Part shown: piece after piece, positions 19,227 to 33,728 of the stretch | Position numbering within the stretch: position 1 is the first letter of the stretch | Layout of the letters: each line of letters begins with the position of its first letter | IMG/VR virus record: IMGVR_UViG_3300021963_003854 | Coordinates: 1 to 33,748 of that record | DNA: 33,748 nt | Source of the DNA: a virus | Reading direction: 5' to 3' (one strand) | The notes under the pieces: model-generated | Databases searched by the model: none | What the model saw: the letters and a program-made list of their open reading frames with translations, nothing else | Told to the model about the DNA's origin: nothing | Made by a program: the position numbers and the translations under genes

Positions 19227-19229
19227 CAA

Positions 19230-20724: not shown

Positions 20725-20900
20725 AATGGTTAAAGACCTACCTGCGTGAAGTAACTGGTGAAACGTGGACATTCGTAGGTCTACTAACTGCCTATTTCAC
20801 GTTAGACGGATCAGCTAAAAAGGTGACAGGTTTGCTTATCCTAATTGGGGCATTTGTCTGGCTGGTAACATTGCCTTTAAGACAAGATGATGAGGATTAA
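20721..20900 (+). CDS. Second small membrane protein of the lysis cassette
   Basis: A 59-aa protein whose ATG overlaps the previous stop (ATGA). Hydrophobic spans are at about residues 17-29 ('TFVGLLTAYFTL') and 35-51 ('VTGLLILIGAFVWLVTLPL'), with a basic N-terminus and acidic end 'RQDDED'. It sits directly before the endolysin, the classic holin or antiholin position. Confidence 0.6.
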   Translation: MKWLKTYLREVTGETWTFVGLLTAYFTLDGSAKKVTGLLILIGAFVWLVTLPLRQDDED

Positions 20901-20905
20901 ATCAA

Positions 20906-21295
20906 ATGGGCTTACCAATTAAGGGTGGAAAGATTACCACCGCATACGGCAAAAAAGGCAAGATGTGGTCAAAGGGTTATCACACAGGAGTTGATTTTGC
21001 TTGCAAAGTTGGAACTGACATTGTTGCAGTTGCAGATGGCAAGATTGAGAACGCATCTTGGGGTTCTGCCTACGGCACTCAGTTGATACAAAAAGTTGAG
21101 GGTGGCTGGGTAATCTATGCACACCTTTCAAAGGCTCTTGTTAAGCCCGGCGATAAAGTTGTTAAAGGTCAGCACATTGCTGAATCAGGCAATACAGGTA
21201 ACAGTTCTGGGCCACATTTACACTTCGAGCAGAGGTCAAATATTCGCTGGTCAGCAGGCAAGGACATTGACCCAGCTGCGATCCTAGCGAAGTAA
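20906..21295 (+). CDS. Endolysin: M23 (LytM-type) zinc metallopeptidase
   Basis: A 129-aa protein that is little more than the catalytic domain. M23 motifs are 'YHTGVDFACKVGTDIVAVADG' (H and D zinc ligands; first residues cited only in part), 'VIYAHLSKALVKPGDKV' and the H-x-H of 'GNSSGPHLHFEQ'. It should cut peptide cross-links in peptidoglycan. No signal peptide and no wall-binding domain is present, so export depends on a holin. It is the only peptidoglycan hydrolase I see in the genome. Stop and next start overlap as TAATG. Confidence 0.9.
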   Translation: MGLPIKGGKITTAYGKKGKMWSKGYHTGVDFACKVGTDIVAVADGKIENASWGSAYGTQLIQKVEGGWVIYAHLSKALVKPGDKVVKGQHIAESGNTGNSSGPHLHFEQRSNIRWSAGKDIDPAAILAK

Positions 21296-21753
21296 TGCGT
21301 AGGCGAATAGCAACCTGCGCTATCGCTTTATCTCTAGTCTTTACATCACAGGTTCACGCAGAAGCCACGCAGCCTTACGTTGTTGCAACGGCTAAAAAAT
21401 CTGGCATCTGCAAAGTCACATCTGACCAAAGTGTTACTGGCAAGTGGCAGACGTTTAAGAACTGTAATCCATTTGTTCTAGGTGGTGAGCGTTCCTTGTT
21501 CTTTGTTCAGCTACACATCATGTGCGAGAAGCGACCTAAGTATGTCAAGTTGCGTTTAGCCCGGTTGCATCCTGACGGCACAAAAGATACAACAGGCACA
21601 ACCACGTTCTCATTTACCAAAGAAACAACACGCGACTGGCAAGGCACTATGTGGTGGGAATCGAAAACCAAGTACCCAATCGTGGCGCAGTATAAAGTGG
21701 TAGGCGGTAAGTGTTATTCAGATGAGCGACAATTTAAGTGGTGGCAACCGTAA
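21295..21753 (+). CDS. Secreted protein of unknown function, lysis cassette
   Basis: A 152-aa protein. The signal peptide is clear: 'MRRRIATCAIALSLVF' and cleavage near 'VHA-EA' at residue 23. The mature part has Cys residues near 'SGICKVT', 'FKNCNPF', 'HIMCEKR' and 'GKCYSDE', enough for two disulfides, and is predicted beta-rich. No enzymatic motif is recognised. Its position after the endolysin, in overlap with both neighbours, suggests a job outside the membrane in lysis or in blocking a second infection. Confidence 0.6.
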   Translation: MRRRIATCAIALSLVFTSQVHAEATQPYVVATAKKSGICKVTSDQSVTGKWQTFKNCNPFVLGGERSLFFVQLHIMCEKRPKYVKLRLARLHPDGTKDTTGTTTFSFTKETTRDWQGTMWWESKTKYPIVAQYKVVGGKCYSDERQFKWWQP

Positions 21754-22031
21754 TGGGACTAATTGAACTAGGGCAATACGCAGGCGCACTTTCAGCTATT
21801 GCATTACTTGCAGGCATGGCTATCAAGTGGGGAATCGTTAAGCCTATTAAGGCTTACATAGATCAGGCTACTTACCCAATTAGCCCAACTGCCAATGGTG
21901 GCAAGTCGCTCCCAGACATAGCGCACACAGTAAACCGAATTGAAGCCAGCGTTAAAGAACTTGATTATCGCCTTAACTCGATTGAGGAATTAGTTACTAA
22001 ACCGACACGCACCAGAAAAACAACAGCCTGA
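21753..22031 (+). CDS. Single-span membrane protein with coiled coil, holin-like
   Basis: A 92-aa protein whose ATG 21753 overlaps the previous stop. Residues 9-28 ('YAGALSAIALLAGMAIKWGI') form one membrane span; residues about 52-80 form a helix with heptads ('HTVNRIEASVKELDYRLNSI'), and the end is basic (TRTRKTTA). Proteins with one N-terminal span and a coiled coil are frequent in actinophage lysis cassettes. It could be a pinholin-like protein or an accessory factor. Confidence 0.6.
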   Translation: MGLIELGQYAGALSAIALLAGMAIKWGIVKPIKAYIDQATYPISPTANGGKSLPDIAHTVNRIEASVKELDYRLNSIEELVTKPTRTRKTTA

Positions 22032-22056
22032 CACACTTGCGCTCTAGACTTATCTA
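22028..22056 (+). promoter_or_regulatory. Putative promoter of the DNA metabolism module
   Basis: CTGACA (22028-22033), 17-nt spacer, TATCTA (22051-22056). The -35 overlaps the stop codon of the last lysis gene. A ribosome site GAAAGG (22060-22065) then precedes GTG 22074. It marks the change from late genes to a block of likely early genes. Confidence 0.5.
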
Positions 22057-22073
22057 GACGAAAGGTGGTCGCT

Positions 22074-22316
22074 GTGACCTTACTTGACGATTTAGAAACT
22101 GTGGTCAAAAGCAGTTACGAATGTTCTATTAAGCGCGTACTAAAGCAACTAAACGCAAACGAATCAGCAGCCCTAACAAAGCTCATAGATGATCCTGAAA
22201 CAAGTCCCACAAGTCTTGCGCGTGTATTAACTAAGAACGGCTTTGACATTAGCCGTCAGACAATTCATAGACACCGCAGGCGCGGTCAAGGCCCAGAGGG
22301 ATGTAAATGCCCATGA
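22074..22316 (+). CDS. Small helix-turn-helix DNA-binding protein
   Basis: An 80-aa protein starting at GTG 22074 (AAAGG 8 nt upstream; GTG 22065 would overlap the ribosome site). 'SLARVLTKNGFDISRQTIHRHRRRG' has the shape of a helix-turn-helix with a basic recognition helix (cited in part: 'GFDISRQTIHRHRR'), and the end 'GCKCP' holds two cysteines. The preceding helices ('VLKQLNANESAALTKLIDD') may form a dimer surface. It overlaps the phosphoesterase gene by 10 nt. It may regulate this module or help replication; not a recognised repressor. Confidence 0.65.
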   Translation: MTLLDDLETVVKSSYECSIKRVLKQLNANESAALTKLIDDPETSPTSLARVLTKNGFDISRQTIHRHRRRGQGPEGCKCP

Positions 22317-23491
22317 GTCTTACAGACGATCTATCAAAACTAGGCGATGACGAACAGCGTAAGCGCGTTGCTAAATCTATTCCAGCAGGATTTGAACCGG
22401 GCATTGAGTACGACTCAACTGGTGGCGTTCTAAAGTCAGTCCCTAGACCAGCAGGCGATGAACCTGATCACGCTGAATTGTTGGCTGAGTTTGAACTAGA
22501 CCCTGCCAAGTGGCGCATCACAGGCTTACGCCGTAGCAAGTGGCAGAGGTGGGATGGCGAGTGGCTGGAATCATTTAGAGCTACGTTTGTGCCGTCTAGT
22601 GGCTCTGTTCACGTTGAGCCAAAGGAACTTCTGGACATAGTTGCGAAGTGGAAGCCCAGCAATACCCCTAGAAAGCCCGTAAAGCCCTCTGTAAGCCCCG
22701 TAGCCTATGTTGTGGTACTTGCAGACACACAGGTTGGAAAGATTGACGGTGAGGGTTCTGAGGGGATTATTAAAAACGTATTACATAAGACAGATTTAGC
22801 CGTTGCCCGACTCAAAGAGTTGCGCAAGGCAGGTCGTGAGATTGACACGATCTATCTTCCGCAATTAGGTGACTGTATTGAGGGCATGAACTCGCAAGGT
22901 GGCAAGCACATCTGGCGTACTGACCTAGACCTAACTGCTCAGATTCGTGTCTATCGCCGTTTGCTTTTGCACATGGTTAAAACTTTCGCACCACTAGCTG
23001 ACAGAGTTATTGTGCCTTGCGTACCGGGTAATCACGATGAAGCGGTGCGCGTTGGAAACTCAATGGCTACCACTTACACAGACTCATTCGCGTTAGATGC
23101 TGCTTCTGCCGTTGCTGATGCGCTAGCTGATCATCCTGACTTTAAGCACGTTAGTTTCGTGTTCCCTAAATACGACACACTTTCAGTAACGCTAGATATG
23201 GCTGGCACAGTTGTCGGTTTGATTCACGGCCACCAATGCAGAGGTAAAGCAGTTGAGTGGTGGAAGAACATGGCACACGGTCAGCAAGACATTGGTGAAG
23301 CTACGTTGCTTCTGTCTGGTCACTATCACCATTTAAGAATTGAGCAGTCAGGTCGTAAGACTTGGATGCAAGCACCTGCACTTGACGGTGGTTCACAATG
23401 GTTCGAGAATTCATCAGGGCAAGCTGCACCAGCAGGGATGCTCACGCTAACAGTCGGACAAGGTAGGTGGGATGATGCCAAAATCTTGTAA
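22307..23491 (+). CDS. Calcineurin-like metallophosphoesterase
   Basis: A 394-aa protein. Residues 1-125 are an N-terminal domain with 'WRITGLRRSKWQRWDGEWL'. The metal site follows in order: 'VLADTQVGK' (D140; Gln142 takes the place of the usual His), 'LGDCIEG' (D189), 'PGNHDE' (N242, H243, D244), 'LIHGHQ' (about 304-309) and 'SGHYHH' (about 340). This is a binuclear-metal phosphoesterase; in phages related proteins may cut DNA ends like Mre11/SbcD or remove phosphates from nucleotides. ATG 22307 is 6 nt from AGAGGG, better than ATG 22313. Substrate is unknown. Confidence 0.82.
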   Translation: MPMSLTDDLSKLGDDEQRKRVAKSIPAGFEPGIEYDSTGGVLKSVPRPAGDEPDHAELLAEFELDPAKWRITGLRRSKWQRWDGEWLESFRATFVPSSGSVHVEPKELLDIVAKWKPSNTPRKPVKPSVSPVAYVVVLADTQVGKIDGEGSEGIIKNVLHKTDLAVARLKELRKAGREIDTIYLPQLGDCIEGMNSQGGKHIWRTDLDLTAQIRVYRRLLLHMVKTFAPLADRVIVPCVPGNHDEAVRVGNSMATTYTDSFALDAASAVADALADHPDFKHVSFVFPKYDTLSVTLDMAGTVVGLIHGHQCRGKAVEWWKNMAHGQQDIGEATLLLSGHYHHLRIEQSGRKTWMQAPALDGGSQWFENSSGQAAPAGMLTLTVGQGRWDDAKIL

Positions 23492-23576
23492 GCATGAATG
23501 GCTAGAGATTCGTTATGCAAGTTATTCCGTTGTGGAATGTCGCAAGTGTTACGAGGTGATGGAAATTGACAAGTGA
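23475..23576 (+). CDS. 33-aa C-x-H...C-x2-C zinc-knuckle protein
   Basis: A short ORF nested between larger genes: it overlaps the phosphoesterase end by 17 nt and the next start by 11 nt. It contains C5-x-H7-E-W and C22-R-K-C25, a complete set of zinc ligands in 33 residues. The same ligand pattern occurs in several other proteins of this phage. Coding is supported by the ligand set and the chained overlaps. Function is unknown; such mini zinc proteins often bind nucleic acid or host proteins. Confidence 0.6.
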   Translation: MPKSCKHEWLEIRYASYSVVECRKCYEVMEIDK

Positions 23577-23787
23577 AGAACTAGCTGACCAAGTAACTCG
23601 GTGCGTTGAGTCTTTGCGCTCACGGATAATGGGTACAGGTGACGAGCAATACAGTCGCGGTACACAGCAGAGCATTGAAACTAAATCAGGCGAGCAGATT
23701 GTTTTAGAAACGCTGGAAGAACTAGACGATGCGATTGTGTATTTGGCCCACTTACGCGCTAGACTGGGCAAACTTGCGCAGCTCTAG
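23566..23787 (+). CDS. Small helical MazG-like protein
   Basis: A 73-aa acidic protein starting at TTG 23566. 'GDEQYSRGTQQSIETKSGEQ' and 'ETLEELDDAIVYLAHLRARL' form a helix pair in which E-E-L-D-D-A resembles the EExxD metal motif of all-alpha NTP pyrophosphohydrolases (MazG/dUTPase-like). It is too short for a whole enzyme subunit alone but could work as an oligomer. Similar small proteins are frequent in actinophages. Activity is inferred. Confidence 0.55.
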   Translation: MTSEELADQVTRCVESLRSRIMGTGDEQYSRGTQQSIETKSGEQIVLETLEELDDAIVYLAHLRARLGKLAQL

Positions 23788-23805
23788 GCGATCCCTAGAC
23801 CGTAG

Positions 23806-23842
23806 ATGCCACCTGCTTATGCTTTGTCGGGTGGCATTTACT
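23806..23842 (+). terminator. Hairpin terminator candidate
   Basis: ATGCCACC (23806-23813) pairs perfectly with GGTGGCAT (23830-23837), loop 16 nt, followed by TTACTTTG. The T-run is imperfect, but it stands between two operons and just before the strong promoter at 23874. Confidence 0.7.
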
Positions 23843-23873
23843 TTGCCAAAAAACTCAACAGACACGCCCTAAT

Positions 23874-23902
23874 TTGACTTGTATTACATTTATTGTTATA
23901 CT
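23874..23902 (+). promoter_or_regulatory. Strong sigma-70-type promoter (likely early)
   Basis: TTGACT (23874-23879), a 17-nt A/T-rich spacer and TATACT (23897-23902): the closest match to consensus in the window. Transcription should start near 23909. It drives the two small genes after it and perhaps the following operon. Confidence 0.85.
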
Positions 23903-23914
23903 TAATGTATAGGC

Positions 23915-23928
23915 GCAGGGAAACCTGC
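23915..23928 (+). promoter_or_regulatory. 5' leader stem-loop with GAAA tetraloop
   Basis: GCAGG-GAAA-CCTGC is a perfect 5-bp stem closed by a GNRA tetraloop, only a few bases from the predicted 5' end. It may protect the mRNA from decay. The ribosome site AGGGG (23935-23939) stays free 6 nt before ATG 23946. Confidence 0.6.
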
Positions 23929-23945
23929 TAGGACAGGGGCTAGAA

Positions 23946-24194
23946 ATGGCAACAAAGCAAAAGGTAACAAAAGCACTAGCTGAACTAGGTGCGAGCTTTA
24001 GTCAAGATGCTGGCAAGTATCACTATGACGAAATTGAATTAGTAGCACCAACTGGAAAAGTGTGGTCTGCAAATCTTTGCGAAGTCTTGTGTTACGAATT
24101 CGACAAATACAGCATGACCAAAGCTGAGTTCTGGGATGAAGCTCTAACTGACATAGAGCAGGGCTTACTGGATGACTTGGAAGCAGGTAAATAA
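23946..24194 (+). CDS. Small acidic early protein, unknown function
   Basis: An 82-aa protein with a clear AGGGG site. It reads as helix ('VTKALAELGASFSQD'), beta hairpin ('YDEIELVAPTGKVWS'), then acidic helices ('AEFWDEALTDIEQGLLDDLE'). It shares the first 15 bases (encoding MATKQ) with the next gene. It is the first product of the strongest promoter, so it could be a host-takeover factor. No family recognised. Confidence 0.65.
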   Translation: MATKQKVTKALAELGASFSQDAGKYHYDEIELVAPTGKVWSANLCEVLCYEFDKYSMTKAEFWDEALTDIEQGLLDDLEAGK

Positions 24195-24196
24195 AC

Positions 24197-24439
24197 ATGG
24201 CAACAAAGCAACAGCTACTAAACAAAGCAAAAAAAGCAAACGTTGAAGTTGAGATTGAATTTGGCGATGGATACGTTGTGGTGATGATGGATGCTTGGGA
24301 TCAGCAATGGTCTGGGTATGAAGATGGTCACGGCTTTAGCGCATCAGGTGACACAGCTAGTGAAGCCTATGCAGATGCACTTATGCAACTAAGCACACTC
24401 GTACCTTGCAATGGATGCGGTGACAAGTACCACCGCTAA
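24197..24439 (+). CDS. Small early protein with C-x2-C...H motif
   Basis: An 80-aa protein. An N-terminal Lys-rich helix (QQLLNKAKKANVEVE) leads to beta strands with 'DGYVVVMMDAWDQQWSGYED', then 'TASEAYADALMQLSTLV' helix and a final C-N-G-C-G-D-K-Y-H-R that may bind a metal. The middle resembles small phage proteins with a hairpin followed by a long helix. It starts 2 nt after the previous stop. Function unknown. Confidence 0.62.
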   Translation: MATKQQLLNKAKKANVEVEIEFGDGYVVVMMDAWDQQWSGYEDGHGFSASGDTASEAYADALMQLSTLVPCNGCGDKYHR

Positions 24440-24450
24440 CTAATCCAGCG

Positions 24451-24480
24451 ACAGCCCTGCCTTAATCGGTGGGGCTGTTT
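24451..24480 (+). terminator. Hairpin terminator after the two small early genes
   Basis: ACAGCCC (24451-24457) pairs with GGGCTGT (24472-24478); inner GCC/GGT adds wobble pairs. The stem is followed by TTTGCATTTG, a modest T-rich tail. The next promoter elements begin inside its 3' end. Confidence 0.65.
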
Positions 24481-24505
24481 GCATTTGTCATACAGGTCGT
24501 ATAAC
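24478..24505 (+). promoter_or_regulatory. Promoter for the first methyltransferase gene, probably leaderless
   Basis: TTTGCA (24478-24483), 16-nt spacer, TATAAC (24500-24505). The ATG at 24514 is 8 nt after the -10 and lacks a ribosome site, so the mRNA should start on or beside the initiation codon. Confidence 0.55.
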
Positions 24506-24513
24506 GTCTGAGT

Positions 24514-25608
24514 ATGAGTAAAGCAAAAATAATTATTGGGGATGTTAGAACTGCAATGCAGTCAATCCCAGATCAGTCAATTCAAACCTGCGTAACATCA
24601 CCGCCCTACTGGGGACTGCGTGACTATGGCACTGGTACATGGTCAGGTGGTGACAGTGAATGTAGTCATAAAAGAGATAGCAAGTATTCAGATAAGACAA
24701 TTACTGGTCACAAGAATCCTGCCATTGGCGGTGTGGGTGATGCTATCTATAAAAGCGTTTGTGAACGTTGTGGAGCTACCCGTGAAGATGAGCAACTAGG
24801 TCTAGAGGAAACACCACAGCAGTATGTAGATCAGATGGTTGAAGTCTTTAGGGAAGTCTGGCGCGTACTAAAAGATGACGGAACACTTTGGCTAAACATT
24901 GGTGATAGTTATGCAGGCTCAGGTAAAGGGCCGGCTGGAAACTTAGGCGCGACACATAATGAACGTCACATGGAACATAAGCATTCAGCGATTGTGCCTG
25001 ACGGTCTAAAGCCAAAAGACTTGGTTGGTATTCCTTGGCGTTTAGCTTTTGCATTGCAAGCTGACGGTTGGTATTTAAGGCAGGACATTATCTGGGCTAA
25101 ACCAAATCCAATGCCTGAGTCAGTTACAGACAGATGCACCAAGTCACATGAGTACGTCTTTCTAATGTCTAAGTCACGGCAGTATTTTTATGACCATGAA
25201 GCTATTAAAGAACCTGTTGTGCAAGATTGGGGCAGTCGAGACAGAACCAATGGGAAATACCACAATGAGGGAACCGGATTAACTCCACATTCAGGTTTGA
25301 CCAAGACTTATGAAACTAGAAATAAGCGCGATGTCTGGAACGTTCCCACTAAGCCTTACAAGGGCGCACACTTTGCTGTAATGCCAGAAGCTCTTATTGA
25401 ACCTTGCATACTTGCTGGCTCATCTGTTGGCGATACGGTCTTTGATCCGTTCACTGGTTCTGGGACTGTTGGCATGGTTGCTCTTAGGCACAATAGAAAC
25501 TTTGTAGGTACTGAATTAAATCCAGACTATGCAGACTTAGCTGTTAATCGTATTTACAATGATGCACCATTACTAAATGAAATAGAACAGGAGTTGGCAA
25601 ATGGCTGA
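24514..25608 (+). CDS. Site-specific DNA methyltransferase, SPPY type (beta class)
   Basis: A 364-aa protein. Catalytic motif IV S29-P-P-Y32 ('TSPPYWGLRDYG') lies near the N-terminus and the AdoMet motif 'DPFTGSG' (311-317) near the C-terminus, the beta-class order. SPPY is more usual in N4-cytosine methylases, though N6-adenine cannot be excluded. A zinc-knuckle-like insert, C50-x-H52 ... C83-x2-C86, follows motif IV. No restriction endonuclease is next to it, so it is an orphan, probably masking phage DNA from host restriction. The RHH gene starts inside its 3' end. Confidence 0.9.
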   Translation: MSKAKIIIGDVRTAMQSIPDQSIQTCVTSPPYWGLRDYGTGTWSGGDSECSHKRDSKYSDKTITGHKNPAIGGVGDAIYKSVCERCGATREDEQLGLEETPQQYVDQMVEVFREVWRVLKDDGTLWLNIGDSYAGSGKGPAGNLGATHNERHMEHKHSAIVPDGLKPKDLVGIPWRLAFALQADGWYLRQDIIWAKPNPMPESVTDRCTKSHEYVFLMSKSRQYFYDHEAIKEPVVQDWGSRDRTNGKYHNEGTGLTPHSGLTKTYETRNKRDVWNVPTKPYKGAHFAVMPEALIEPCILAGSSVGDTVFDPFTGSGTVGMVALRHNRNFVGTELNPDYADLAVNRIYNDAPLLNEIEQELANG

Positions 25609-25759
25609 CGAACAGAAAGAAAACAAAGAAAATCTAGTTGCCCTGCGACTTAACAATGAGCAGATGCTTGCGGTTAAACAATGGGCGCACCAACATAACG
25701 CCAATGTAAGTCAAGTGATCCGTTCAGCGATTGAACTAATGACAGGAGCAAAACAATGA
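25601..25759 (+). CDS. Ribbon-helix-helix (CopG-like) DNA-binding protein
   Basis: A 52-aa protein overlapping the methyltransferase end by 8 nt. After an acidic/polar start it shows a strand 'LVALRLNNEQ' and then 'MLAVKQWAHQHNANVSQVIR' and 'SAIELM', the ribbon-helix-helix layout with the conserved 'N-x-S-x-V-I-R' turn. These dimers bind operators and may control this operon. Stop overlaps the next ATG. Confidence 0.72.
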   Translation: MADEQKENKENLVALRLNNEQMLAVKQWAHQHNANVSQVIRSAIELMTGAKQ

Positions 25760-26061
25760 GAACACCTAGCGAGCAGTTGATTCAAACAACATGGATGGCA
25801 GACCACAAGCTGTTTGCTAATCACGATGCAGTTACCCCAGTTGATTGGGCTAAGGTCTGGGAAGTTATAGACAACATAGATGAGCCAGAGTTTGACGAAC
25901 ACCAGCTAGTAATAGTTGCCGTTCTAGAGTTCTTGTGTGGTTCTGAAATGGTAGAAGTTAGCCTTGACGAGATTGCTAACTTGCCAGAGATTGAACGTCA
26001 AGCAGTAGCAGAAGCCTTGCGCTTGAAGTGGTCTAAGGTCGAATACCAAGAAAATCTTTAG
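25756..26061 (+). CDS. Conserved-looking small protein, unknown function
   Basis: A 101-aa acidic, helical protein with 'VDWAKVWEVIDNIDEPEFDE', 'LVIVAVLEFLCGSE' and 'LDEIANLPEIERQAVAEALR'. ATG overlaps the RHH gene's stop as ATGA. The last helix pair could be a helix-turn-helix-like fold but lacks basic residues. It ends an operon before a strong hairpin. Confidence 0.6.
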   Translation: MRTPSEQLIQTTWMADHKLFANHDAVTPVDWAKVWEVIDNIDEPEFDEHQLVIVAVLEFLCGSEMVEVSLDEIANLPEIERQAVAEALRLKWSKVEYQENL

Positions 26062-26072
26062 AGTAGAATAGG

Positions 26073-26108
26073 AATAGGCTCACGCCATTTCGACAACGTG
26101 AGCCTATT
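26073..26108 (+). promoter_or_regulatory. Perfect 12-bp stem-loop upstream of the replication gene
   Basis: AATAGGCTCACG (26073-26084) pairs perfectly with CGTGAGCCTATT (26097-26108), loop of 12 nt. No T-run follows, so it is not a standard intrinsic terminator. A second smaller hairpin (CACCT 26113-26117 with AGGTG 26124-26128) covers the ribosome site GAGAGG of the next gene. Together they may be a translational control element, an RNA processing site or an operator. Confidence 0.6.
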
Positions 26109-26131
26109 CAAACACCTAGTGAGAGGTGCTT

Positions 26132-26917
26132 ATGCACAATCTTAGTCAAGACACAGACGAAATCCACGTTGAGCCACTTCCATTCCAGCAGATACCTAAC
26201 TGGGTATTTGAGTCTGACGTTTCACCAACTGCCATAAAACTTTATTTAGTGCTGCGCAAGAACGGTGATAACAAACGTGGCACAAGCTACTGGTCACGCA
26301 AGAAACTCGCAGACCAAATGGCTTGCTCTATTGCAACAGTTGATCGGGCTAAATCAGAACTTATTTCTATCGGTGCTATCTGCTACATCAAGCGAAAGAA
26401 TGACACGGGTGACTGGACTTCTAATCTGTATCACATACACACATCCAGCAATCATTTATGCAAGTACCTAGCATCAAAAATGAGGGTAGGTAGCCCCAAA
26501 AATGATGCTACGGGTAGCCCCAAAAACGATGCACAAACTAATAACCATATAGAACTTAGAACCAATGAACTTAATACTCGCACCTACGGTGACGAGAATC
26601 ATCAGGCTTGTAATCTCTTAGCAGACCTAATTGAAGCCAACGGTTCAAAGCGACCAGCAGTTACGGATAAATGGTTAAGCGACATGGAACGCCTTAATCG
26701 AATAGATGAACGCTCATGGGAACAGATCACTAGAGCGATTGAGTGGTGTCAGGCTGATGACTTTTGGCGTGGCAACATTATGAGTCCAGCAAAGCTACGC
26801 AAGCAGTATGACCAACTCAGGTTGGCTGCACAGCGCGGTAACAAACAAAGCAAGTTCACTAAGACCCTTGACTGGATCAGGAACTTAGAGAACGAAACAA
26901 AGGAACTAGAGCAGTGA
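26132..26917 (+). CDS. Winged-helix replication initiation protein (DnaD/RepA-like)
   Basis: A 261-aa protein. Residues about 15-110 are a winged helix domain with 'QQIPNWVFESDVSPTAIKLY' and 'SRKKLADQMACSIATVDRAK', the usual start of Gram-positive phage replication initiators. A linker with a doubled SPKNDA peptide follows (nt 26489-26532), then a C-terminal helical domain with 'RIDERSWEQITRAIEWCQAD' and 'MSPAKLRKQYDQL' resembling the DnaD-like end that recruits helicase. ATG 26132 has GAGAGG 5 nt before it. It probably binds the phage origin. The helicase-loader-like gene follows with a 4-nt overlap. Confidence 0.8.
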   Translation: MHNLSQDTDEIHVEPLPFQQIPNWVFESDVSPTAIKLYLVLRKNGDNKRGTSYWSRKKLADQMACSIATVDRAKSELISIGAICYIKRKNDTGDWTSNLYHIHTSSNHLCKYLASKMRVGSPKNDATGSPKNDAQTNNHIELRTNELNTRTYGDENHQACNLLADLIEANGSKRPAVTDKWLSDMERLNRIDERSWEQITRAIEWCQADDFWRGNIMSPAKLRKQYDQLRLAAQRGNKQSKFTKTLDWIRNLENETKELEQ

Positions 26918-27255
26918 ACAAGACAGAGATAGCAAAACTACTAGCGATAGCAAGTGCAATAGATGCCCGGTTAGGTGCAGCTGATGAAAGCGGATTTAGG
27001 GCAAAGGTTGAGGGCTGGTCACTTGCTCTAAGTGAAACTATGGACTTTGAGTTTGCTTGTGATGCGATTGGAAAGCATTACAAATCAGCAACAGATGCAC
27101 TTATGCCGGCACACCTGAACGCAATGTGGACTGCTAATAGATCACGTCAGCACGAAATAGACAACGTGCGAGCTATTGGATCAAGCCCTAAGTCGCAAGG
27201 AATGCCTGACGATGTACGCGCCAAATTAGTGGAACTGGGACTTAAGCGACCATAA
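26914..27255 (+). CDS. Putative helicase loader/replisome organiser
   Basis: A 113-aa protein starting at GTG 26914, overlapping the initiator stop (GTGA). 'KTEIAKLLAIASAIDARLGA' and 'WSLALSETMDFEFACDAIGK' followed by 'MPAHLNAMWTANRSRQ' are a pattern that I know from actinophage proteins next to replication initiators, similar to the N-terminal part of helicase loaders. There is no ATPase motif. Role in loading host replicative helicase is inferred from pair-wise context. Confidence 0.6.
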   Translation: MNKTEIAKLLAIASAIDARLGAADESGFRAKVEGWSLALSETMDFEFACDAIGKHYKSATDALMPAHLNAMWTANRSRQHEIDNVRAIGSSPKSQGMPDDVRAKLVELGLKRP

Positions 27256-27256
27256 T
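27251..27256 (+). promoter_or_regulatory. Putative -10 element (CATAAT) for leaderless whiB-like mRNA
   Basis: CATAAT ends 6 nt before ATG 27263; no ribosome site is present. It overlaps the stop codon of the preceding gene, and the -35 region is weak (TTAGTG at 27226). Confidence 0.45.
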
Positions 27257-27262
27257 GGTCTA

Positions 27263-27601
27263 ATGCTTAAAGATTGCGACCATGAAGCATGGCTAGATTC
27301 AGGGATGTGCCTGATTTGCTCTGCGCCTGAATCATGGATGTATCTAGCAGAATGCTCAAAGGGTGACCCTGACGTTTGCTTTCCACCTGATGAAGAACCG
27401 CACCTGTACGCCATAGCCAAAAGAGTCTGCGAGGAATGCCCGGTATCAGGGTTCTGCCTAGAGATTGGCCTAGATGAGAAATGGGGCATGTGGGGCGGAT
27501 TGGATCCAATCGAGCGTTACAAATTAGCCAAGTCTCCTAAACTGCCAAAGGATCGGCTTGAAAGACGGCGGTTTTTACGGGTTTACGCCTACACAAATTA
27601 G
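27263..27601 (+). CDS. WhiB-like Fe-S transcription regulator with N-terminal zinc-knuckle extension
   Basis: A 112-aa protein. The WhiB core has four cysteines (C31, C56, C59, C65: 'LAECSKGDP' and 'VCEECPVSGFCL') that hold a [4Fe-4S] cluster, then 'GMWGGLDPIER', the turn that touches sigma-A, and a basic tail 'RLERRRF'. WhiB proteins are found only in actinobacteria and their phages. Before the core is C5-x-H7-x8-C16-x2-C19, an unusual addition resembling the free mini zinc proteins of this phage. It may redirect host RNA polymerase. A 130-nt intergenic region follows. Confidence 0.9.
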   Translation: MLKDCDHEAWLDSGMCLICSAPESWMYLAECSKGDPDVCFPPDEEPHLYAIAKRVCEECPVSGFCLEIGLDEKWGMWGGLDPIERYKLAKSPKLPKDRLERRRFLRVYAYTN

Positions 27602-27733
27602 AACATTTGTACGAACGGCGCGTTATCAAATTGTTACCAAATTAGTTGATTAAATGGCGTACATCCTGCCCTAAATCTGATACGTTATACATAACAGAGA
27701 GCGCAAGCTCTAAGAGAAGCAAAGGAATCAGAA
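27602..27733 (+). promoter_or_regulatory. Intergenic region with tandem repeat and probable promoter
   Basis: It holds GTTATCAAATT (27622-27632) directly followed by GTTACCAAATT (27633-27643) and a weaker AGTTGATTAAAT, an operator- or iteron-like array. A possible promoter follows (TTATAC 27685-27690 or TATACA one base later; -35 unclear). The ribosome site AAGGAA lies at 27721-27726. It could be the control region of the last operon or an origin candidate, since the replication genes lie just upstream. Confidence 0.5.
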
Positions 27734-27895
27734 ATGACAAAGCAAATTACTAAGACAGAATGTGGCCAGCACAGAATTTTAGGATACTCATACAACGCAG
27801 AACTAGAAATGGTTTGTAAGGGTTGCGGTCTATCACAAGACCTACACGAAACAAATGCAGAAACAATCGCTCGTAAAGAAAAGGTTGGTGCATAA
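27734..27895 (+). CDS. 53-aa Cys/His zinc-finger-like protein
   Basis: First gene after the intergenic region. Ligands C10-x2-H13 and C29-x2-C32 ('ECGQHR' and 'VCKGCG') are set about 16 residues apart, with 'ILGYSYNAELEM' between, as in a short zinc ribbon/knuckle. The tail is a charged helix ending 'RKEKVGA'. The stop overlaps the next ATG (TAATG). A regulatory or nucleic-acid-binding role is possible. Confidence 0.65.
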   Translation: MTKQITKTECGQHRILGYSYNAELEMVCKGCGLSQDLHETNAETIARKEKVGA

Positions 27896-28017
27896 TGCGT
27901 AACTGGAACTGGACACCACGAGCAAGATTCATAGGTGAACTGCTAACTGCAATCGGACTGGTTGCAGCTGGCTGGGTTCTATTTGTTGGCACTTGGTTTG
28001 CGTTAGGTGGTAACTAA
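27895..28017 (+). CDS. 40-aa single-span membrane protein
   Basis: Overlaps both neighbours by TAATG. A Trp- and Arg-rich start (RNWNWTPRAR) precedes a hydrophobic helix (about residues 15-36, 'LLTAIGLVAAGWVLFVGTWF') and a short end GGN. Positive-inside rule puts the N-terminus in the cytoplasm. Small membrane proteins in early operons may block other phages; unproven here. Confidence 0.6.
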   Translation: MRNWNWTPRARFIGELLTAIGLVAAGWVLFVGTWFALGGN

Positions 28018-28238
28018 TGGGATTCGTACCTTTTGGAATGCAATACGCAACTCTAGATGACAAGCACAAAGTCAGAAAGATGCTTGAATACTTAGGCATC
28101 ACACATCCAGCGCATCAGGTTGAGTTTATGTCAGCCCTACTTGATAGACCTTTTGACACAACCAAGATGAGCCGTCAGGACTTCTACACACTCGTAACCA
28201 AGATTCAAAACATACAAGAGAACAGGAACAAAGCATGA
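28017..28238 (+). CDS. Small protein of unknown function before the annealing protein
   Basis: A 73-aa basic, helical protein: 'DDKHKVRKMLEYLGITHPAH' then 'FMSALLDRPFDTTKMSRQDF' and a Gln/Asn-rich helix. TAATG/ATGA overlaps with both neighbours show that it is part of the recombination operon. No family recognised. Confidence 0.6.
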   Translation: MGFVPFGMQYATLDDKHKVRKMLEYLGITHPAHQVEFMSALLDRPFDTTKMSRQDFYTLVTKIQNIQENRNKA

Positions 28239-28819
28239 AACAAGAACAACAGGATGCGTTACGCGCACCGTTCCCTAAAGAGCAGATTCAAAAGCTACCC
28301 ACAGGTGGTCTGCAATTAGATTACGTGAGCCACGCTTGGGTAACAGATCGCTTGCTTGCAGTAGACCCAATGTGGACTTGGAAGCCCTTAGCGTTTACAG
28401 ATGCAGGACTGCCAGCGTTTGACTTAAACGGCGGTTTATGGATTGAACTAACTATCTGTGGTGTCACTCGGTACGGCTATGGCGAACCACAAGGGCGCGA
28501 CAAGTTCGACATGACCAAGGGTGCAATCGGTAACGCAATCAGGAACGCAGCAATGCGCTTTGGTGTCGCACTTGATCTCTGGGCTAAGGAAGCACCAGCA
28601 GAAAACACGAAAGCCACACCTTATGCAAAAGCAACGCCTAAAGCTACGGCTGAACTAAGCACAGCGACTCAGAAGATGATTGAACGAATCGGTAACGCTG
28701 GGTCACTTATTGAACTAACTGAGGTAGTCCCACTTATTCAGGGTGGAGCGTTTACAGATGCAGAAAAGCGCAACCTGCGACTTATCTTTGACAACAAGAA
28801 AGTTGAGTTAGGCGCATGA
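28235..28819 (+). CDS. Putative single-strand annealing protein (Erf/Rad52-like)
   Basis: A 194-aa protein. 'LDYVSHAWVTDRLLAVDPMW' followed by strands 'LWIELTICGVTRYGYGEPQG', then 'MTKGAIGNAIRNAAMRFGVA' is the order seen in Rad52-type annealing proteins, in which the last helix carries the 'A-R-x-G' DNA-binding signature. Then comes an Ala/Pro/Thr-rich linker and a helical C-terminus. It would anneal ssDNA during recombination-dependent replication, in agreement with SSB and RusA in the same operon. Family inferred from pattern. Confidence 0.65.
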   Translation: MKQEQQDALRAPFPKEQIQKLPTGGLQLDYVSHAWVTDRLLAVDPMWTWKPLAFTDAGLPAFDLNGGLWIELTICGVTRYGYGEPQGRDKFDMTKGAIGNAIRNAAMRFGVALDLWAKEAPAENTKATPYAKATPKATAELSTATQKMIERIGNAGSLIELTEVVPLIQGGAFTDAEKRNLRLIFDNKKVELGA

Positions 28820-28965
28820 GTTTTGTATTAGGAGCAGTCTTATTTCTGCTAGGTGGATTCTTTGGAATGCTGATCATGGCTTTTGCGCAATCGTTACCGC
28901 GCCAGATACAAGAACAGCAAGATGCGCTTGTGTCGCAGCTGAGATTGGTTGTAGACGATGAATGA
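28816..28965 (+). CDS. 49-aa single-span membrane protein with helical tail
   Basis: Begins inside the end of the annealing gene (ATGA) and overlaps the next start. An N-terminal span (residues 3-24, 'FVLGAVLFLLGGFFGMLIMA') leads into a Gln-rich amphipathic helix ('RQIQEQQDALVSQLRLVV'). Second of three one-span mini proteins in this operon. Function unknown. Confidence 0.6.
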   Translation: MSFVLGAVLFLLGGFFGMLIMAFAQSLPRQIQEQQDALVSQLRLVVDDE

Positions 28966-29254
28966 TCTAAAAGAATACGGAATGCAACTCGCTTTAGATG
29001 CCCAGCCTGTCTGGTCAGAGCAAGCCTTTGAAGCAATCAAACTGTTAGCAAGTCGCAAGGTTGAGTTCACTAGCGAGGATGTTCTAGCCCTTACCGGGTT
29101 GCCCTCTGGTGGCGTAGGTATGAACAAGAACAACGCATCAGGTGCAGTAATGAACAAAGCTGCTAAGGCTGGCATCATTCGCAAGGTTGGCTACGCCACA
29201 GCAAAACGTAAAGAGTCACACGGTTCAGTTCACGCAGTTTGGATAGGCGTGTGA
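28958..29254 (+). CDS. Conserved winged-helix-like small protein
   Basis: A 98-aa protein with 'EQAFEAIKLLASRKVEFTSE', 'VLALTGLPSGGVGMNKNNAS', 'MNKAAKAGIIRKVGY' and 'ESHGSVHAVWIG'. The helix set plus final beta pair looks like a winged helix, and this whole pattern recurs in actinophages near RusA genes. DNA binding is likely but the role is unknown. RusA follows with a GTGA overlap. Confidence 0.65.
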   Translation: MNDLKEYGMQLALDAQPVWSEQAFEAIKLLASRKVEFTSEDVLALTGLPSGGVGMNKNNASGAVMNKAAKAGIIRKVGYATAKRKESHGSVHAVWIGV

Positions 29255-29658
29255 TTAGTTACTTTGTAGAGGGTGAGCCAGCACCACAAGGCTCTAAGAA
29301 TGGCTTTGTTAAGAATGGTCGCATGGTCATGGTTGAGTCAAGTAAAAAGGTTAAGCCTTGGCGCGAAGCCGTAACTATCAAGACAGCGCAGCACATGAGT
29401 TGGGAAACACTAAACCCAATGACTACCCCGGTAGAGATTGCGTTGGTCTTTCACTTGCCTAGACCTAAGACCGTAAATCGTAAGTGGCCAAGCGTGAAGC
29501 CTGATCTAGATAAGTTGATTCGCTCAACCTTTGACGGACTTACAACAGGTGGACTCTACACAGACGATGCCTTAGTAATAGCTGTGAGCGCATCTAAGCA
29601 ATACGCCACAGACAGAATTGGTTGCCAAATTATTGCAAGCGAGGTGCAAGATGTTTAA
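29251..29658 (+). CDS. rusA: RusA-family Holliday junction resolvase
   Basis: A 135-aa protein beginning at GTG 29251 (an in-frame TTG at 29239 lies inside the prior gene). RusA motifs: 'VEGEPAPQGSKNGF' (start strand), 'HLPRPKT', then 'KPDLDKLIRSTFDGLTTGGL' with catalytic acids and 'YTDDALVIAVSASKQYA'. It cuts four-way junctions left by recombination or replication before packaging. Length is normal for the family. It overlaps the second WhiB gene by 8 nt. Confidence 0.9.
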   Translation: MISYFVEGEPAPQGSKNGFVKNGRMVMVESSKKVKPWREAVTIKTAQHMSWETLNPMTTPVEIALVFHLPRPKTVNRKWPSVKPDLDKLIRSTFDGLTTGGLYTDDALVIAVSASKQYATDRIGCQIIASEVQDV

Positions 29659-29983
29659 CACAGACGGCGCAGCCTGCATTGGGTTAGACCCAGAGCTATT
29701 CTTTCCAACCAATAACATCAGTCCCAAGATTGAGGACTTACTTAAAAAGACTTGCCTACGGTGTCCAATCTTTGATGCTTGCCTTGACTATTCGTTAAAG
29801 GTAAAGGTCGAGGGTTGGTGGGCAGGAACGTCAGATAAAGACCGTGTAGAACTACGCAGGTTCTTTCACATAACACCAATACGAATGGATGAGGAATACA
29901 AGCATCACTTCCAGCAAGAAACAAATCAAGCAAAGAATTCGCGCACATACCGTGAGCGATTAAGAGAAGCAGGAGCAATGTAA
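29651..29983 (+). CDS. Second WhiB-like Fe-S protein
   Basis: A 110-aa protein. Cysteines follow the WhiB pattern: one in 'AACIGLDPELFFP', then C36-L-R-C39-P-I-F-D-A-C45 ('TCLRCPIFDACL'), then 'EGWWAGTSDKDRVELRRFF' as the turn that usually reads GVWGG. The C-terminal half is charged (QAKNSRTYRERLREAGAM). ATG 29651 is chosen because it starts the domain; the open frame reaches back into rusA. It differs strongly from the WhiB protein at 27263, so the two were probably acquired separately. Confidence 0.88.
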   Translation: MFNTDGAACIGLDPELFFPTNNISPKIEDLLKKTCLRCPIFDACLDYSLKVKVEGWWAGTSDKDRVELRRFFHITPIRMDEEYKHHFQQETNQAKNSRTYRERLREAGAM

Positions 29984-30360
29984 TGGCACTACCAACAATC
30001 ACAGCAGTAGGAAACTTAGTCTTTGACCCAGAGTTTCGCGCTACTAGCTCAGGAATCAGCATGTGCAAGATGCGCATCGCCTGCAATGAGCGCAAGAAAG
30101 CACAAGACGGCACATGGTCAGACGGTGAGCCTAGTTACTTTGACGTGGTTCTGTGGCGTGGACTAGCAGAAGCAGCAACTGAAACCTTTAAGAAAGGCCA
30201 AGCGGTTCTAGTTGTAGGCAAAGCCAAGATAGTTAAGTACGAGGACAAGAATGGCGTTGAGCGTACATCGGTAGAGATTGCAGCTGATGAAATTGCAGCA
30301 GTAGTTAAAGCCAACAAAGCACCAGCAGTTAAAGACTTAACGGAAGATCCTTGGTTATGA
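29983..30360 (+). CDS. ssb: Single-stranded DNA-binding protein
   Basis: A 125-aa OB-fold protein: 'LPTITAVGNLVFDPEFRAT', 'MCKMRIACNERKK', 'YFDVVLWRGLAEAATETFKK' (cited in part) and 'GQAVLVVGKAKI' are classic bacterial-type SSB strands. The usual flexible linker is very short and the acidic tip reads 'TEDPWL' instead of D-D-I-P-F, though still acidic plus hydrophobic for partner binding. It coats ssDNA in replication and recombination. The start overlaps the previous stop. Confidence 0.92.
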   Translation: MALPTITAVGNLVFDPEFRATSSGISMCKMRIACNERKKAQDGTWSDGEPSYFDVVLWRGLAEAATETFKKGQAVLVVGKAKIVKYEDKNGVERTSVEIAADEIAAVVKANKAPAVKDLTEDPWL

Positions 30361-30560
30361 TTATCGTTTTAGTTTTATCCGTAATGACGGTGACAATAGT
30401 GACATTCCTTGCCGGGTATCGGTTAGCGATGTACCACCAAAAGATGTATGCAATGAGCCTGTTCGAGGAGGGCGCATCACTAGAGCCAATCTTTGCAAGG
30501 CTTGATCGTGAGTACGCATACACAGATGAACTAACAAAGCCATTTACTGATGACAAGTAA
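30357..30560 (+). CDS. 67-aa single-span membrane protein
   Basis: ATG 30357 overlaps the SSB stop as ATGA. The N-terminal 22 residues are a strong hydrophobic span ('IIVLVLSVMTVTIVTFLAGY'), followed by a cytoplasmic-type charged helix with 'FEEGASLEPIFARLDREYAY'. Third mini membrane protein in the same operon. Function unknown. Confidence 0.65.
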   Translation: MIIVLVLSVMTVTIVTFLAGYRLAMYHQKMYAMSLFEEGASLEPIFARLDREYAYTDELTKPFTDDK

Positions 30561-30819
30561 GTGCGGTGTCTGTCCCCGGTCATCCTCGAAAGGGGATGGC
30601 TGGTGGGCAGTCCACGACTACAAGACAGACCCACCAACTGTTTACGAGCTATGTCCTAGTTGCTATCGCAACAAGAGCCTTATCGCTTACAGGGACACAA
30701 TCATTGAAGCATTGCAAGAGATAAAGATTAGTGATCCTGACCCTGCACTTCATGTGGCAATGCAAGTTATGAAGCAAAGGTGTATGTCAGTAGTTAGGGA
30801 CACCGCGTTCAATGACTAA
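30550..30819 (+). CDS. Small C-x2-C / C-x2-C protein
   Basis: An 89-aa protein with C5-x2-C8 ('KCGVCPRSS') and, after 'GWWAVHDYK', C35-x2-C38 ('LCPSCYRNK'), a plausible zinc ribbon. The C-terminal half is helical. It overlaps the previous gene by 11 nt and the next by 8 nt. May bind DNA or host proteins; no family recognised. Confidence 0.62.
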   Translation: MTSKCGVCPRSSSKGDGWWAVHDYKTDPPTVYELCPSCYRNKSLIAYRDTIIEALQEIKISDPDPALHVAMQVMKQRCMSVVRDTAFND

Positions 30820-30919
30820 GCCAAATCCTTACACACCTGATCCAGACTGCCCTAAGTGCCAAGAGGACAACATTGCCTGCAAGGATCACTACATGGCTAA
30901 CGGTGGCTGGAATGATTAG
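30812..30919 (+). CDS. 35-aa Cys/His mini protein
   Basis: ATG 30812 lies in the end of the previous gene and the stop overlaps the HNH start. Ligands C12-x2-C15 and C22-x2-H25 ('DCPKCQ', 'ACKDH') fit one zinc. Coding is supported by the ligand set and by overlap with both neighbours. Function unknown. Confidence 0.55.
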   Translation: MTKPNPYTPDPDCPKCQEDNIACKDHYMANGGWND

Positions 30920-31184
30920 ACCACGCTCTAAAAAGATGGAAAGCCTGTATGCAACCCAACGGCGTAAGTTAGTCAAAGAGTTACTAAGGGATTTCCCTGC
31001 GTGTCAGCGTTGCGCCATAGCTTATGCAACAGACGTACACGAGATCAAGACACGCGCTAGAGGTGGAAGCATTGTGGATAGGGATAACCTTGCGCTACTT
31101 TGTAGACCTTGCCACACTTACATAACGCAGAACCCGGCAATCGGTAAGGCTGAGGGCTGGCTCAAGAATAGTTGGGATGACTAA
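30912..31184 (+). CDS. HNH endonuclease-like protein
   Basis: A 90-aa protein. C31-x2-C34 ('PACQRC'), then 'DVHEIKTRARGGSIVDRDNL' and 'LLCRPCHTYI' give the two zinc pairs and the H...N...H core of HNH nucleases. ATG 30912 follows the overlap pattern; longer in-frame starts are inside the previous gene. Being mid-operon it may act as a nicking enzyme in recombination or as a free-standing homing nuclease. The next gene overlaps by TAATG. Confidence 0.82.
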   Translation: MIRPRSKKMESLYATQRRKLVKELLRDFPACQRCAIAYATDVHEIKTRARGGSIVDRDNLALLCRPCHTYITQNPAIGKAEGWLKNSWDD

Positions 31185-31300
31185 TGACTGAACCTAATGG
31201 CATCTGTCGTGCTGGTTGTGATACACAAGACCACGAGAGTTACTGGGAATGCTTACAAGCAGCCAACGTGTCAATAGACAAATCAAGTCTTAGACCTTAA
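31184..31300 (+). CDS. 38-aa Cys-containing mini protein
   Basis: It overlaps the HNH stop (TAATG). The peptide has 'ICRAGCDTQDHESYWECLQA' and ends 'SSLRP', a signature that I recall from short actinophage proteins. Three Cys and one His could hold a metal. Function unknown. Confidence 0.6.
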   Translation: MTEPNGICRAGCDTQDHESYWECLQAANVSIDKSSLRP

Positions 31301-31306
31301 TAGACT
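31301..31306 (+). promoter_or_regulatory. Putative -10 element (TAGACT), leaderless arrangement
   Basis: TAGACT is 6 nt before ATG 31313, with no ribosome site. TAGACA at 31275-31280 could be a -35 but with a long 20-nt spacer. Same hexamer and distance as at the first gene of the window. Confidence 0.45.
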
Positions 31307-31312
31307 AAGCGC

Positions 31313-31609
31313 ATGAACTGGACAGATACTGTTGGCGTGACGATTCACAATGACCTAGTGCGGTCAGCGTTAAAAAACAAGCCAGAAGCAGACATTGACA
31401 AGCTAGAAGCCAGCATTAAGCGCATGAGCCTAAGCGTAGGCATTACACGCATGGCAATAGCATCAGTCTTAGATGCAGAGATAGAAGCAATGGCTGCCTA
31501 TCGCGTACTGGGTGATTCATCTATCACTAATGAATACCTAGCAGGGATGCAATCAGCAGCTGACTTAGTTAGATACGGCGTACACCTAACGGATGGAATA
31601 AAACTATGA
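31313..31609 (+). CDS. Helical protein of unknown function
   Basis: A 98-aa protein with long helices ('ADIDKLEASIKRMSLSVGIT', 'VLDAEIEAMAAYRVL') and no cysteines. It starts directly after a leaderless-type promoter and overlaps the methyltransferase by ATGA, so the two may be co-expressed. No family recognised. Confidence 0.6.
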   Translation: MNWTDTVGVTIHNDLVRSALKNKPEADIDKLEASIKRMSLSVGITRMAIASVLDAEIEAMAAYRVLGDSSITNEYLAGMQSAADLVRYGVHLTDGIKL

Positions 31610-32850
31610 ACTACGACCTGCGCAATGGTGACTGTGTTGAGATTATGCGTAGCCTGCCAGCAAACAGCGTGGACTCGATTGTTACTGACCCACCGTATGA
31701 GCTTGGCTTTATGGGTAAGTCTTGGGATTCAACTGGTATTGCATACAGCGTAAAGATGTGGGATGAAGCACTTAGAGTCTTAAAGCCCGGCGGTCACTTG
31801 CTTGCCTTTAGTGGATCACGCACTTATCACCGTATGGCTTGCGCCATTGAAGATGCAGGCTTTGAGATACGCGATCAGATTATGTGGGTCTACGGTTCAG
31901 GGTTTCCAAAGTCAATGGATGTAAGCAAGGCAATAGACAAGCAAAGCAATGTTCATGTCGAAGTTATTGCAACTGGTAAAAGTGGCAAAACGGCTATTTG
32001 GAATGAACAAGGCGGTATGGGTAATTTCAACATAACTGCACCGACAACAGACAAAGCAAAGCAATGGGCAGGATGGGGAACAGCACTAAAGCCTGCACAT
32101 GAACCAATAGTCCTAGCTCGTAAGCCCTTGATAGGAACAGTTGCAACTAACGTAATCATTCATGGCACTGGCGCATTGAACATTGACGGGTCAAGGGTTG
32201 GGACTGAAATTCTTGTAAATCAACCGGGTGGCATTCCTAATGGAGCTAATCATTTTGTCAATTCATCGAAAGAATTAAATCGTGATAGACCAGCAATAAC
32301 TGTGCAAGGTCGTTGGCCTGCAAACTTTATACATGATGGTTCAGATGAAGTAGTTGAGTTGTTTCCTGAAACAAAGCCAAGCAAGGCAAATCCTAGAAAC
32401 AATAGTGACTTTAAGTCAGTATCTAAGGGTAAAGAAACAGCGCACACAACACTTGGTCACAACGATAACGGCGGTTCAGCAGCACGATTCTTTTACTGCG
32501 CGAAGGCGAGTAAGAAAGACCGCAATGAAGGACTAGATGGCTTTGCAGAGAAACGCCCTGATGAAAGAAGTGAAACTGGCATGGGTACTTTTACAGAAAA
32601 GGGAGTTGCTAAACAATCAAACCATCACCCAACCGTTAAGCCAATTGATCTAATGCGTTACCTAGTTAAGTTAGTAACACCACCTAACGGAACAGTCTTA
32701 GATCCATTTATGGGTTCAGGCTCAACAGGCAAGGCGGCAGTCTTAGAACACTTTAGTTTTATTGGCATAGACCAAAGCGCAGACTACCTAGAGATTGCAA
32801 CGGCTAGAATCAAACACGCGCAAGAACAGATAGAAGGCCGGTTGTTATGA
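31606..32850 (+). CDS. DNA methyltransferase, DPPY type (N6-adenine/N4-cytosine)
   Basis: A 414-aa protein. Motif IV D28-P-P-Y31 ('VTDPPYELGFMGKSWD') is N-terminal and the AdoMet motif 'LDPFMGSGSTGKAA' starts near residue 365, so this is a beta-type order; DPPY favours adenine-N6 methylation. A long middle region includes 'GRWPANFIHDGSDEVVELFP' and 'ARFFYCAKASKKDRNEGL', common in phage and mobile-element methylases. It is an orphan like the one at 24514 but clearly a different family member. Likely protects against host restriction. Confidence 0.92.
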   Translation: MNYDLRNGDCVEIMRSLPANSVDSIVTDPPYELGFMGKSWDSTGIAYSVKMWDEALRVLKPGGHLLAFSGSRTYHRMACAIEDAGFEIRDQIMWVYGSGFPKSMDVSKAIDKQSNVHVEVIATGKSGKTAIWNEQGGMGNFNITAPTTDKAKQWAGWGTALKPAHEPIVLARKPLIGTVATNVIIHGTGALNIDGSRVGTEILVNQPGGIPNGANHFVNSSKELNRDRPAITVQGRWPANFIHDGSDEVVELFPETKPSKANPRNNSDFKSVSKGKETAHTTLGHNDNGGSAARFFYCAKASKKDRNEGLDGFAEKRPDERSETGMGTFTEKGVAKQSNHHPTVKPIDLMRYLVKLVTPPNGTVLDPFMGSGSTGKAAVLEHFSFIGIDQSADYLEIATARIKHAQEQIEGRLL

Positions 32851-33705: not shown

Positions 33706-33712
33706 CGGGGGG
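33690..33712 (+). other. C6/G6 hairpin at the right end (cos-associated or terminator-like)
   Basis: CCCCCC (33690-33695), 11-nt loop containing the HNH stop codon, GGGGGG (33707-33712), then CGGGTAAAAATCTT. The G-rich strand followed by A-rich bases is not a normal T-tailed terminator on the + strand. G-rich tracts are frequent beside cohesive ends. Confidence 0.55.
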
Positions 33713-33728
33713 CGGGTAAAAATCTTAC

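Follow-up and report, generated by a model that had tools for sequence, protein, structure and literature searches.

A C-x-H…C-x2-C mini zinc site in three unrelated proteins of one phage, probably recruited separately

Wbl (WhiB-like) proteins are redox and nitric oxide sensors, and phage TM4 encodes a member of this family, WhiB. Phage members of the family are surveyed in PMC8612146. Phages also encode tiny Cys/His-rich zinc ribbons and zinc knuckles with two ligand pairs, often several per phage, which have been proposed to be transcription or DNA-binding factors; for Bacillus phage G, PMC7824862 describes a lineage-specific expansion to about 35 zinc-ribbon copies. Similar small Cys/His sites were characterized here in an uncultured phage, the IMG/VR virus record IMGVR_UViG_3300021963_003854, which was analyzed over its positions 1 to 33,748 (33,748 bases, called the window). 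In contrast to the ribbons of phage G, the window copies are not one expanded family, have C-x-H in place of C-x2-C as the first knuckle, and reside in unrelated proteins, namely a free protein of 33 amino acids (aa), a DNA methyltransferase and a Wbl regulator. The three sites are probably separately recruited copies of a mini zinc site that is common in phages, and this assessment includes the jobs that are proposed for them below.

By translation, the strict plan C-x-H…C-x2-C, searched for as C.H.{6,35}C..C, was found in the window proteins encoded at 23475 (33 aa), 24514 (methyltransferase) and 27263 (Wbl regulator). An earlier note on this DNA had listed seven carriers of the plan, four of them in variant form; these three stood, while the protein at 27734 has a C-x2-H variant and those at 30550, 30812 and 31184 follow other plans. 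Three of the 53 window genes thus contain the strict plan. After shuffling of residues the mean was 0.02, none of 2000 shuffles reached three, and none of the 370 non-gene open reading frames (ORFs) of the window contained it. Among 3717 genes of unrelated phage contigs, from which genes picked by pattern had been excluded, the plan was present in 40 (about 1.1%; 4 to 10 after shuffling), a rate that is possibly inflated, because the contigs had been chosen for holding one module. Compared with this background, the binomial P for the window was about 0.02, and it was about 0.14 when the same simple gene caller was applied to the window, which missed the 33-aa gene and yielded 2 of 62 genes. 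The plan is thus real, but relative to actual phage genes its enrichment in this window is mild at most.

The base rate in unrelated phage genes could be taken to mean that such patterns arise by chance and are meaningless in Cys-rich small proteins. This explanation is practically negligible, because shuffled sequences hardly ever contain the plan and the ligands are kept while the spacers vary. A lack of ligand conservation in homologues, which the earlier note had named as evidence against its proposal, was not found: the ligands were retained at 35 of 36 loci of the free protein, in 58 of 58 methyltransferase inserts and in 30 of 30 Wbl arms, one of them with a His-to-Cys exchange. Two Cys/His ligand pairs that are conserved in homologues, as in zinc ribbons and zinc knuckles, are thus present. 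Each site may be a stripped-down zinc ribbon or knuckle that is predicted to bind one Zn2+, and the ion would hold a small loop or hairpin on whose surface DNA or protein could dock. The distance from the His to the second Cys pair is 14 residues in the 33-aa protein, 30 in the methyltransferase and 8 in the Wbl arm, and therefore one common fold is not required for the three sites.

The free protein is encoded at 23472–23576 (plus strand); it has 33 aa when translation starts at 23475 and 34 aa if the ATG at 23472 is used. Its ligands are C6-K-H8-E-W10…C23-x2-C26. The start of the gene overlaps the 3′ end and the stop codon of a gene for a calcineurin-like phosphoesterase of the exonuclease family (22307–23491, plus strand; phrog_284 "exonuclease", E 1.5e-70; Metallophos_2, E 1.3e-4, under the curated cut-off). 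A scan with this phosphoesterase yielded 80 loci, including a close set of 36 loci (L002-L037) with 76-96% identity, in which the phosphoesterase was covered almost end to end. In 35 of these 36 loci a C-x-H…C-x2-C protein is encoded directly after the phosphoesterase, and only L036 is devoid of the gene. Thirty of the 35 slot proteins were found by BLAST, all of which have the Trp; four others (L025, L031, L033 and L035) have Phe or Met in its place, and L028 has Tyr. The alignment of 26 distinct relatives revealed that the ligands are constant and that the intervening residues vary freely. The slot contains one or the other of two allele types, CKHEW… and CSHDWLY…, and in L003, L004, L005 and L006 the 33-aa protein is only 48% identical, while the next gene, p23566, has 97-99% and the phosphoesterase 90-92% identity.

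The curated zinc-ribbon families of Pfam and NCBIfam did not match the 33-aa protein, phrog_7696, a family of 78 positions, matched it weakly (E 0.0019), and a sequence comparison with solved structures gave nothing meaningful (best E 0.41). The protein might be an adaptor that is translationally coupled to the phosphoesterase/exonuclease; such an adaptor function for the exonuclease-family product is conceivable, if on balance doubtful. A connection to phage sigma factors was considered as well, as the L003 allele matched phrog_5767 "sigma factor" with E 1.7e-4. The match rested on W…C-x2-C-x-E, and the connection was discarded, because three of the ten matched records (L472-L474) end in C-x2-C…C-x2-C and have no C-x-H. 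In L020 (11178-11714) and L026 a gene for an HNH endonuclease is located between the phosphoesterase gene and the gene of the 33-aa protein; it overlaps the former at the 3′ end, as would be expected of a homing insertion.

The arm of the Wbl regulator is the most unusual of the three cases. The regulator is encoded at 27263–27601 (plus strand) and matched PF02467 with E 5.2e-14 and 53 bits (cut-off 23.6). The residues C31, C56, C59, C65, G75, W77 and G79 are invariant in 37 sequences, and the protein contains the C…C-x2-C-x5-C and G-x-W-G-G motifs of the Wbl family. The model of its core is similar to WhiB3 (8cwt; Z 9.5, root-mean-square deviation 1.6 over 68 residues) and WhiB1 (6ono; Z 9.3, 1.7 over 67 residues), both bound to region 4 of sigma-A (sigma-4). 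In contrast to the known family, the window protein has an additional N-terminal arm (27263–27322, plus strand) with the translated plan C5-D-H7-E-A-W10…C16-x2-C19. A scan with the regulator yielded 67 further loci, and C5, W10, C16 and C19 were present in all 30 distinct relatives, while H7 was present in 29 and is replaced by Cys in L096. The mean conservation of residues 1-20 was 0.91, compared with 0.79-0.88 elsewhere in the protein. In more distant phage WhiB homologues the homology begins near residue 23-25, and the conserved C-x-H-E-x-W…C-x2-C arm was not seen in those listed. It was also absent from the INPHARED WhiB records that were inspected (L229-L233, 5 of 872 tblastn matches). 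A tblastn scan of genome_contigs for host WhiB proteins that carry the arm gave no relative, which is weak evidence, as such a scan detects close relatives only. In L036, which is a diverged member of the group, the Cys and His residues upstream of the WhiB core are arranged differently.

The arm may extend the surface by which the Wbl core contacts sigma-4 and RNA polymerase, or it may brace the core; that it contacts RNA polymerase itself is rather doubtful. The proximity of three invariant Cys to a known Fe-S domain could also indicate a redox element or a second iron-sulphur element that cooperates with the [4Fe-4S] core and does not bind zinc. This is quite improbable, because C-x-H…C-x2-C with a His-to-Cys swap, as in L096, is a typical zinc ligand set, and we know of no Fe-S motif with the spacing of the arm. 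If the arm binds zinc, WhiB-type regulators would exist in which a conserved zinc site lies beside the Fe-S core, and the arm would offer a construct for studying the action of phage WhiB on host RNA polymerase. Full-text literature searches, which mostly leave subscription papers outside, yielded neither a WhiB zinc arm nor the methyltransferase insert described below, and word searches within PMC8612146 and PMC6282962 revealed neither. A second WhiB-like protein is encoded in the window at 29618-29983 (PF02467, E 8.6e-12); it has no arm, and its gene overlaps the gene at 29239. The presence of two WhiB-like genes (27263 and 29618) makes an actinobacterial host plausible, judging from the family. 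A megablast comparison of positions 20000-33748 with 50,697 phage records gave no match.

The third carrier is a beta-class N6/N4 DNA methyltransferase (24514–25608, plus strand; PF01555, E 3.1e-51) with a motif IV of the S/D-PPY type and an S-adenosylmethionine-binding core. It has the catalytic core, the motif IV TSPPY and the fold in common with CcrM, TTHA0409 and M.BceJIV. In the fold comparison Z was 25.1 to 1g60, 24.6 to 2zig and 24.8 to 9c3s, and the core resembles MboIIA, TTHA0409, M.BceJIV and CcrM with Z 22 to 25. The comparison with the fold library placed only the cores of the methyltransferase and the WhiB-like protein; matches to the arm or the insert were not listed, so that one may exist. 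Unlike the known enzymes, the window methyltransferase has an optional insert of 54 residues right behind motif IV (residues 40-93; 24631–24792, plus strand), which lies between TSPPYWGLRDYG and QLGLEE and has the ligands C50-S-H52…C83-x2-C86. In the alignment with TTHA0409 just five residues separate the matched stretches.

A scan with the methyltransferase gave 80 further loci. Of 68 homologues, 58 contain the insert, always with the ligand plan, and it is cleanly missing in the other 10; one further row was excluded, as its N-terminus is cut. In a tree calculated with the insert removed, presence and absence changed six times, and at least four of these changes are forced by starred branches; the starred group of six that includes the window methyltransferase contains both states. 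The insert thus behaves as a cassette that is cleanly gained and lost. It is predicted to project from the loop that follows the catalytic SPPY motif, where it might add a contact to DNA or to a partner and would be dispensable for catalysis. Closely related methyltransferases with and without the insert represent a natural test of its contribution.

The earlier note had interpreted the window's copies as one small module spread through the genome, which would mean duplication within this phage lineage. The same plan in three genes, the excess over the background and the C-x-H-E-(x)-W that the 33-aa protein has in common with the Wbl arm are in line with this idea; the shared motif is indeed present in both, but it is also common in modules of unrelated viruses. 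A profile of 25 modules of the 33-aa family was searched over 41,236 ORFs. Modules of unrelated viruses were found in L455 (E 7.4e-5), L383 (1.3e-3), L411 (2.7e-3) and L417 (2.9e-3), values that are flattering for these modules, as modules picked by pattern were over-represented in the target set. The profile search proposed by the earlier note thus uncovered modules elsewhere, but it revealed no relation among the window's own proteins: the 33-aa profile left the WhiB-like protein, the methyltransferase and the protein at 27734 unmatched at E up to 50, a profile of the methyltransferase insert (38 sequences) matched none of the window's remaining module proteins, and the match of a profile of the Wbl arm (13 sequences) to the 33-aa protein was as poor as E 43.

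Pairwise comparisons with masked ligands gave the same picture. The 33-aa family had a higher average similarity to 114 modules from other viruses than to the Wbl arm (rank 106; 12 modules used) or the methyltransferase insert (rank 109; 37 modules used), in a background that had been chosen for H-[DE]-W and is hence biased. With an unselected background the ranks were 22 of 38 for the arm and 21 of 38 for the insert; here single window sequences were compared with 37 modules, one of which comes from a WhiB protein related to the window (contig L281/L028). The similarity of the 33-aa family to the arm and to the insert was about 2 to 3.5 standard deviations above that to shuffled partners in both cases, an excess that indicates general module likeness and no more. 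Ranks, profiles and spacings thus do not reveal any special kinship of the three strict copies, and a single duplicated module was rejected, because the copies are not closer to one another than to those of unrelated phages, apart from the pair of the 27734 protein and the insert. A duplicated module is very unlikely, and repeated recruitment fits the missing kinship and the differing spacings better than one spread module. If repeated recruitment accounts for the recurrence of such sites in phages, the occurrence of the same plan within a genome is a weak indication of common origin.

In unrelated viruses the site occurs in free form, appended to the N- or C-terminus of a protein and as an insertion, and the earlier proposal that the plan is used both alone and as a domain was thus verified. 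Two exact DNA patterns that encode C-x-H-[DE]-W…C-x2-C-G were found in viral_contigs in 114 stretches with W-x9 spacing and in at least 120 with W-x12 spacing; among the matches listed, 228 of 234 were open through the module, compared with about half expected by codon arithmetic. A C-terminal module tail is present on a PNKP-type phosphatase of L234 (Escherichia virus TH27). C-x-H-D-W…C-x2-C follows a LexA-type DNA-binding domain in L149 (5819-6193) and L150 (5700-6074; PF01726 in L150, E 1.7e-11), and both genes are located near a related methyltransferase. Methyltransferase inserts with C-x-H-[DE]-W were found in L323, in the CDHEW form, and in L242.

Many of the copies read C-x2-C-x-H-[DE]-W…C-x2-C-G: 61 of the 199 distinct matches listed (14 of 99 and 47 of 100) have a Cys at -3 and thus correspond to a classical CxxC ribbon. 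The C-x-H form may therefore have arisen from a CxxC ribbon by loss of the first Cys. The 33-aa profile matched both kinds, modules with the upstream Cys in L383 and L411 as well as modules without it in L455 and L417. These observations would fit the view that all copies belong to one ancient superfamily of zinc ribbons, a mini domain passed from phage to phage, with a real common descent for which the sequence is too short to give proof. This view is unlikely, though less so than the duplication of one module, because the two search patterns predetermine much of the similarity and the eight residues between His and Cys in the arm would probably not suffice for a normal ribbon hairpin.

Several points weigh against separately recruited zinc sites with the proposed jobs, in addition to the enriched target set of the profile searches. 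The predicted local distance difference test (pLDDT) scores of AlphaFold2 were only 42-47 for the Wbl arm, so that its fold is not demonstrated. In the model of the methyltransferase the mean pLDDT was 84 in the blocks 41-50 and 81-90, which contain C50, C83 and C86, but it was 60 in the block of H52 and below 50 for residues 58-75. The spacers are too different to claim a single fold. With the unselected background, the 27734 protein and the methyltransferase insert ranked first of 38 in one direction and sixth in the other. Lastly, no such gene was found next to the distant phosphoesterase homologues (L038-L081, where flanking sequence is present), and an adaptor role is thus not general.

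The region between the gene of the WhiB-like protein and the next conserved gene (27602-27895) is a hypervariable slot, in which differing small zinc-plan proteins are encoded in the window and in L002, L005, L006, L007, L009, L020, L024, L032, L035 and L090. In the window it contains the gene of the variant mini protein C10-x2-H13…C28-x2-C31 (27734–27895, plus strand). No relatives of this protein were found among the ORFs of the fetched loci or in viral_contigs, and curated families matched it below threshold only (Zn_Ribbon_TF, E 0.16; Lar, E 0.023). C-x2-H…C-x2-C forms are encoded in the same slot of L006, L020, L007 and L024.

It is tempting to speculate that the mini zinc proteins of this actinophage group are interchangeable adaptor cassettes at fixed slots, in which a constant scaffold carries a fast-changing surface directed at a changing host target, for example RNA polymerase or a defence protein, and that the Wbl arm would be the one cassette that became fixed in a transcription factor. 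The idea was put forward because the ligands are kept in the exonuclease slot while two very different alleles occur beside a gene of up to 99% identity, and because the contents of the slot downstream of WhiB differ from phage to phage, several of them with a zinc plan. It is nevertheless improbable.

The remaining small proteins of the window differ in their ligand plans. A zinc-ribbon-type protein with C5-x2-C8…C35-x2-C38 is encoded at 30550–30819 (plus strand), and both Cys pairs were found throughout 28 distinct sequences. The mini protein at 30812–30919 (plus strand) has C13-x2-C16-x6-C23-x2-H26 and is represented by two distinct sequences only. The mini protein at 31184–31300 (plus strand) has C8-x3-C12-x4-H17-x5-C23 and matched phrog_10483 with E 4.6e-6; its sequence, CRAGCDTQDHESYWECLQAA, is nearly invariant among 21 distinct relatives. 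In L087 (9965-10171) and L094 (10399-10608) a protein of this type is fused behind an N-terminal zinc-ribbon-like stretch with C-x-C…C-x2-C. L028 contains a row of genes for small Cys-rich proteins (18226-19955), two of which have C-x-H…C-x2-C, in one case as a tail at the C-terminus of a protein of 117 aa. A primase-like protein with a C-terminal C-x-C-x6-C-x2-C is encoded at 14017-14742 of the window (phrog_9765 "DNA primase", E 7.8e-20), and its gene directly precedes an apparent tail tape measure gene, separate from the replication genes.

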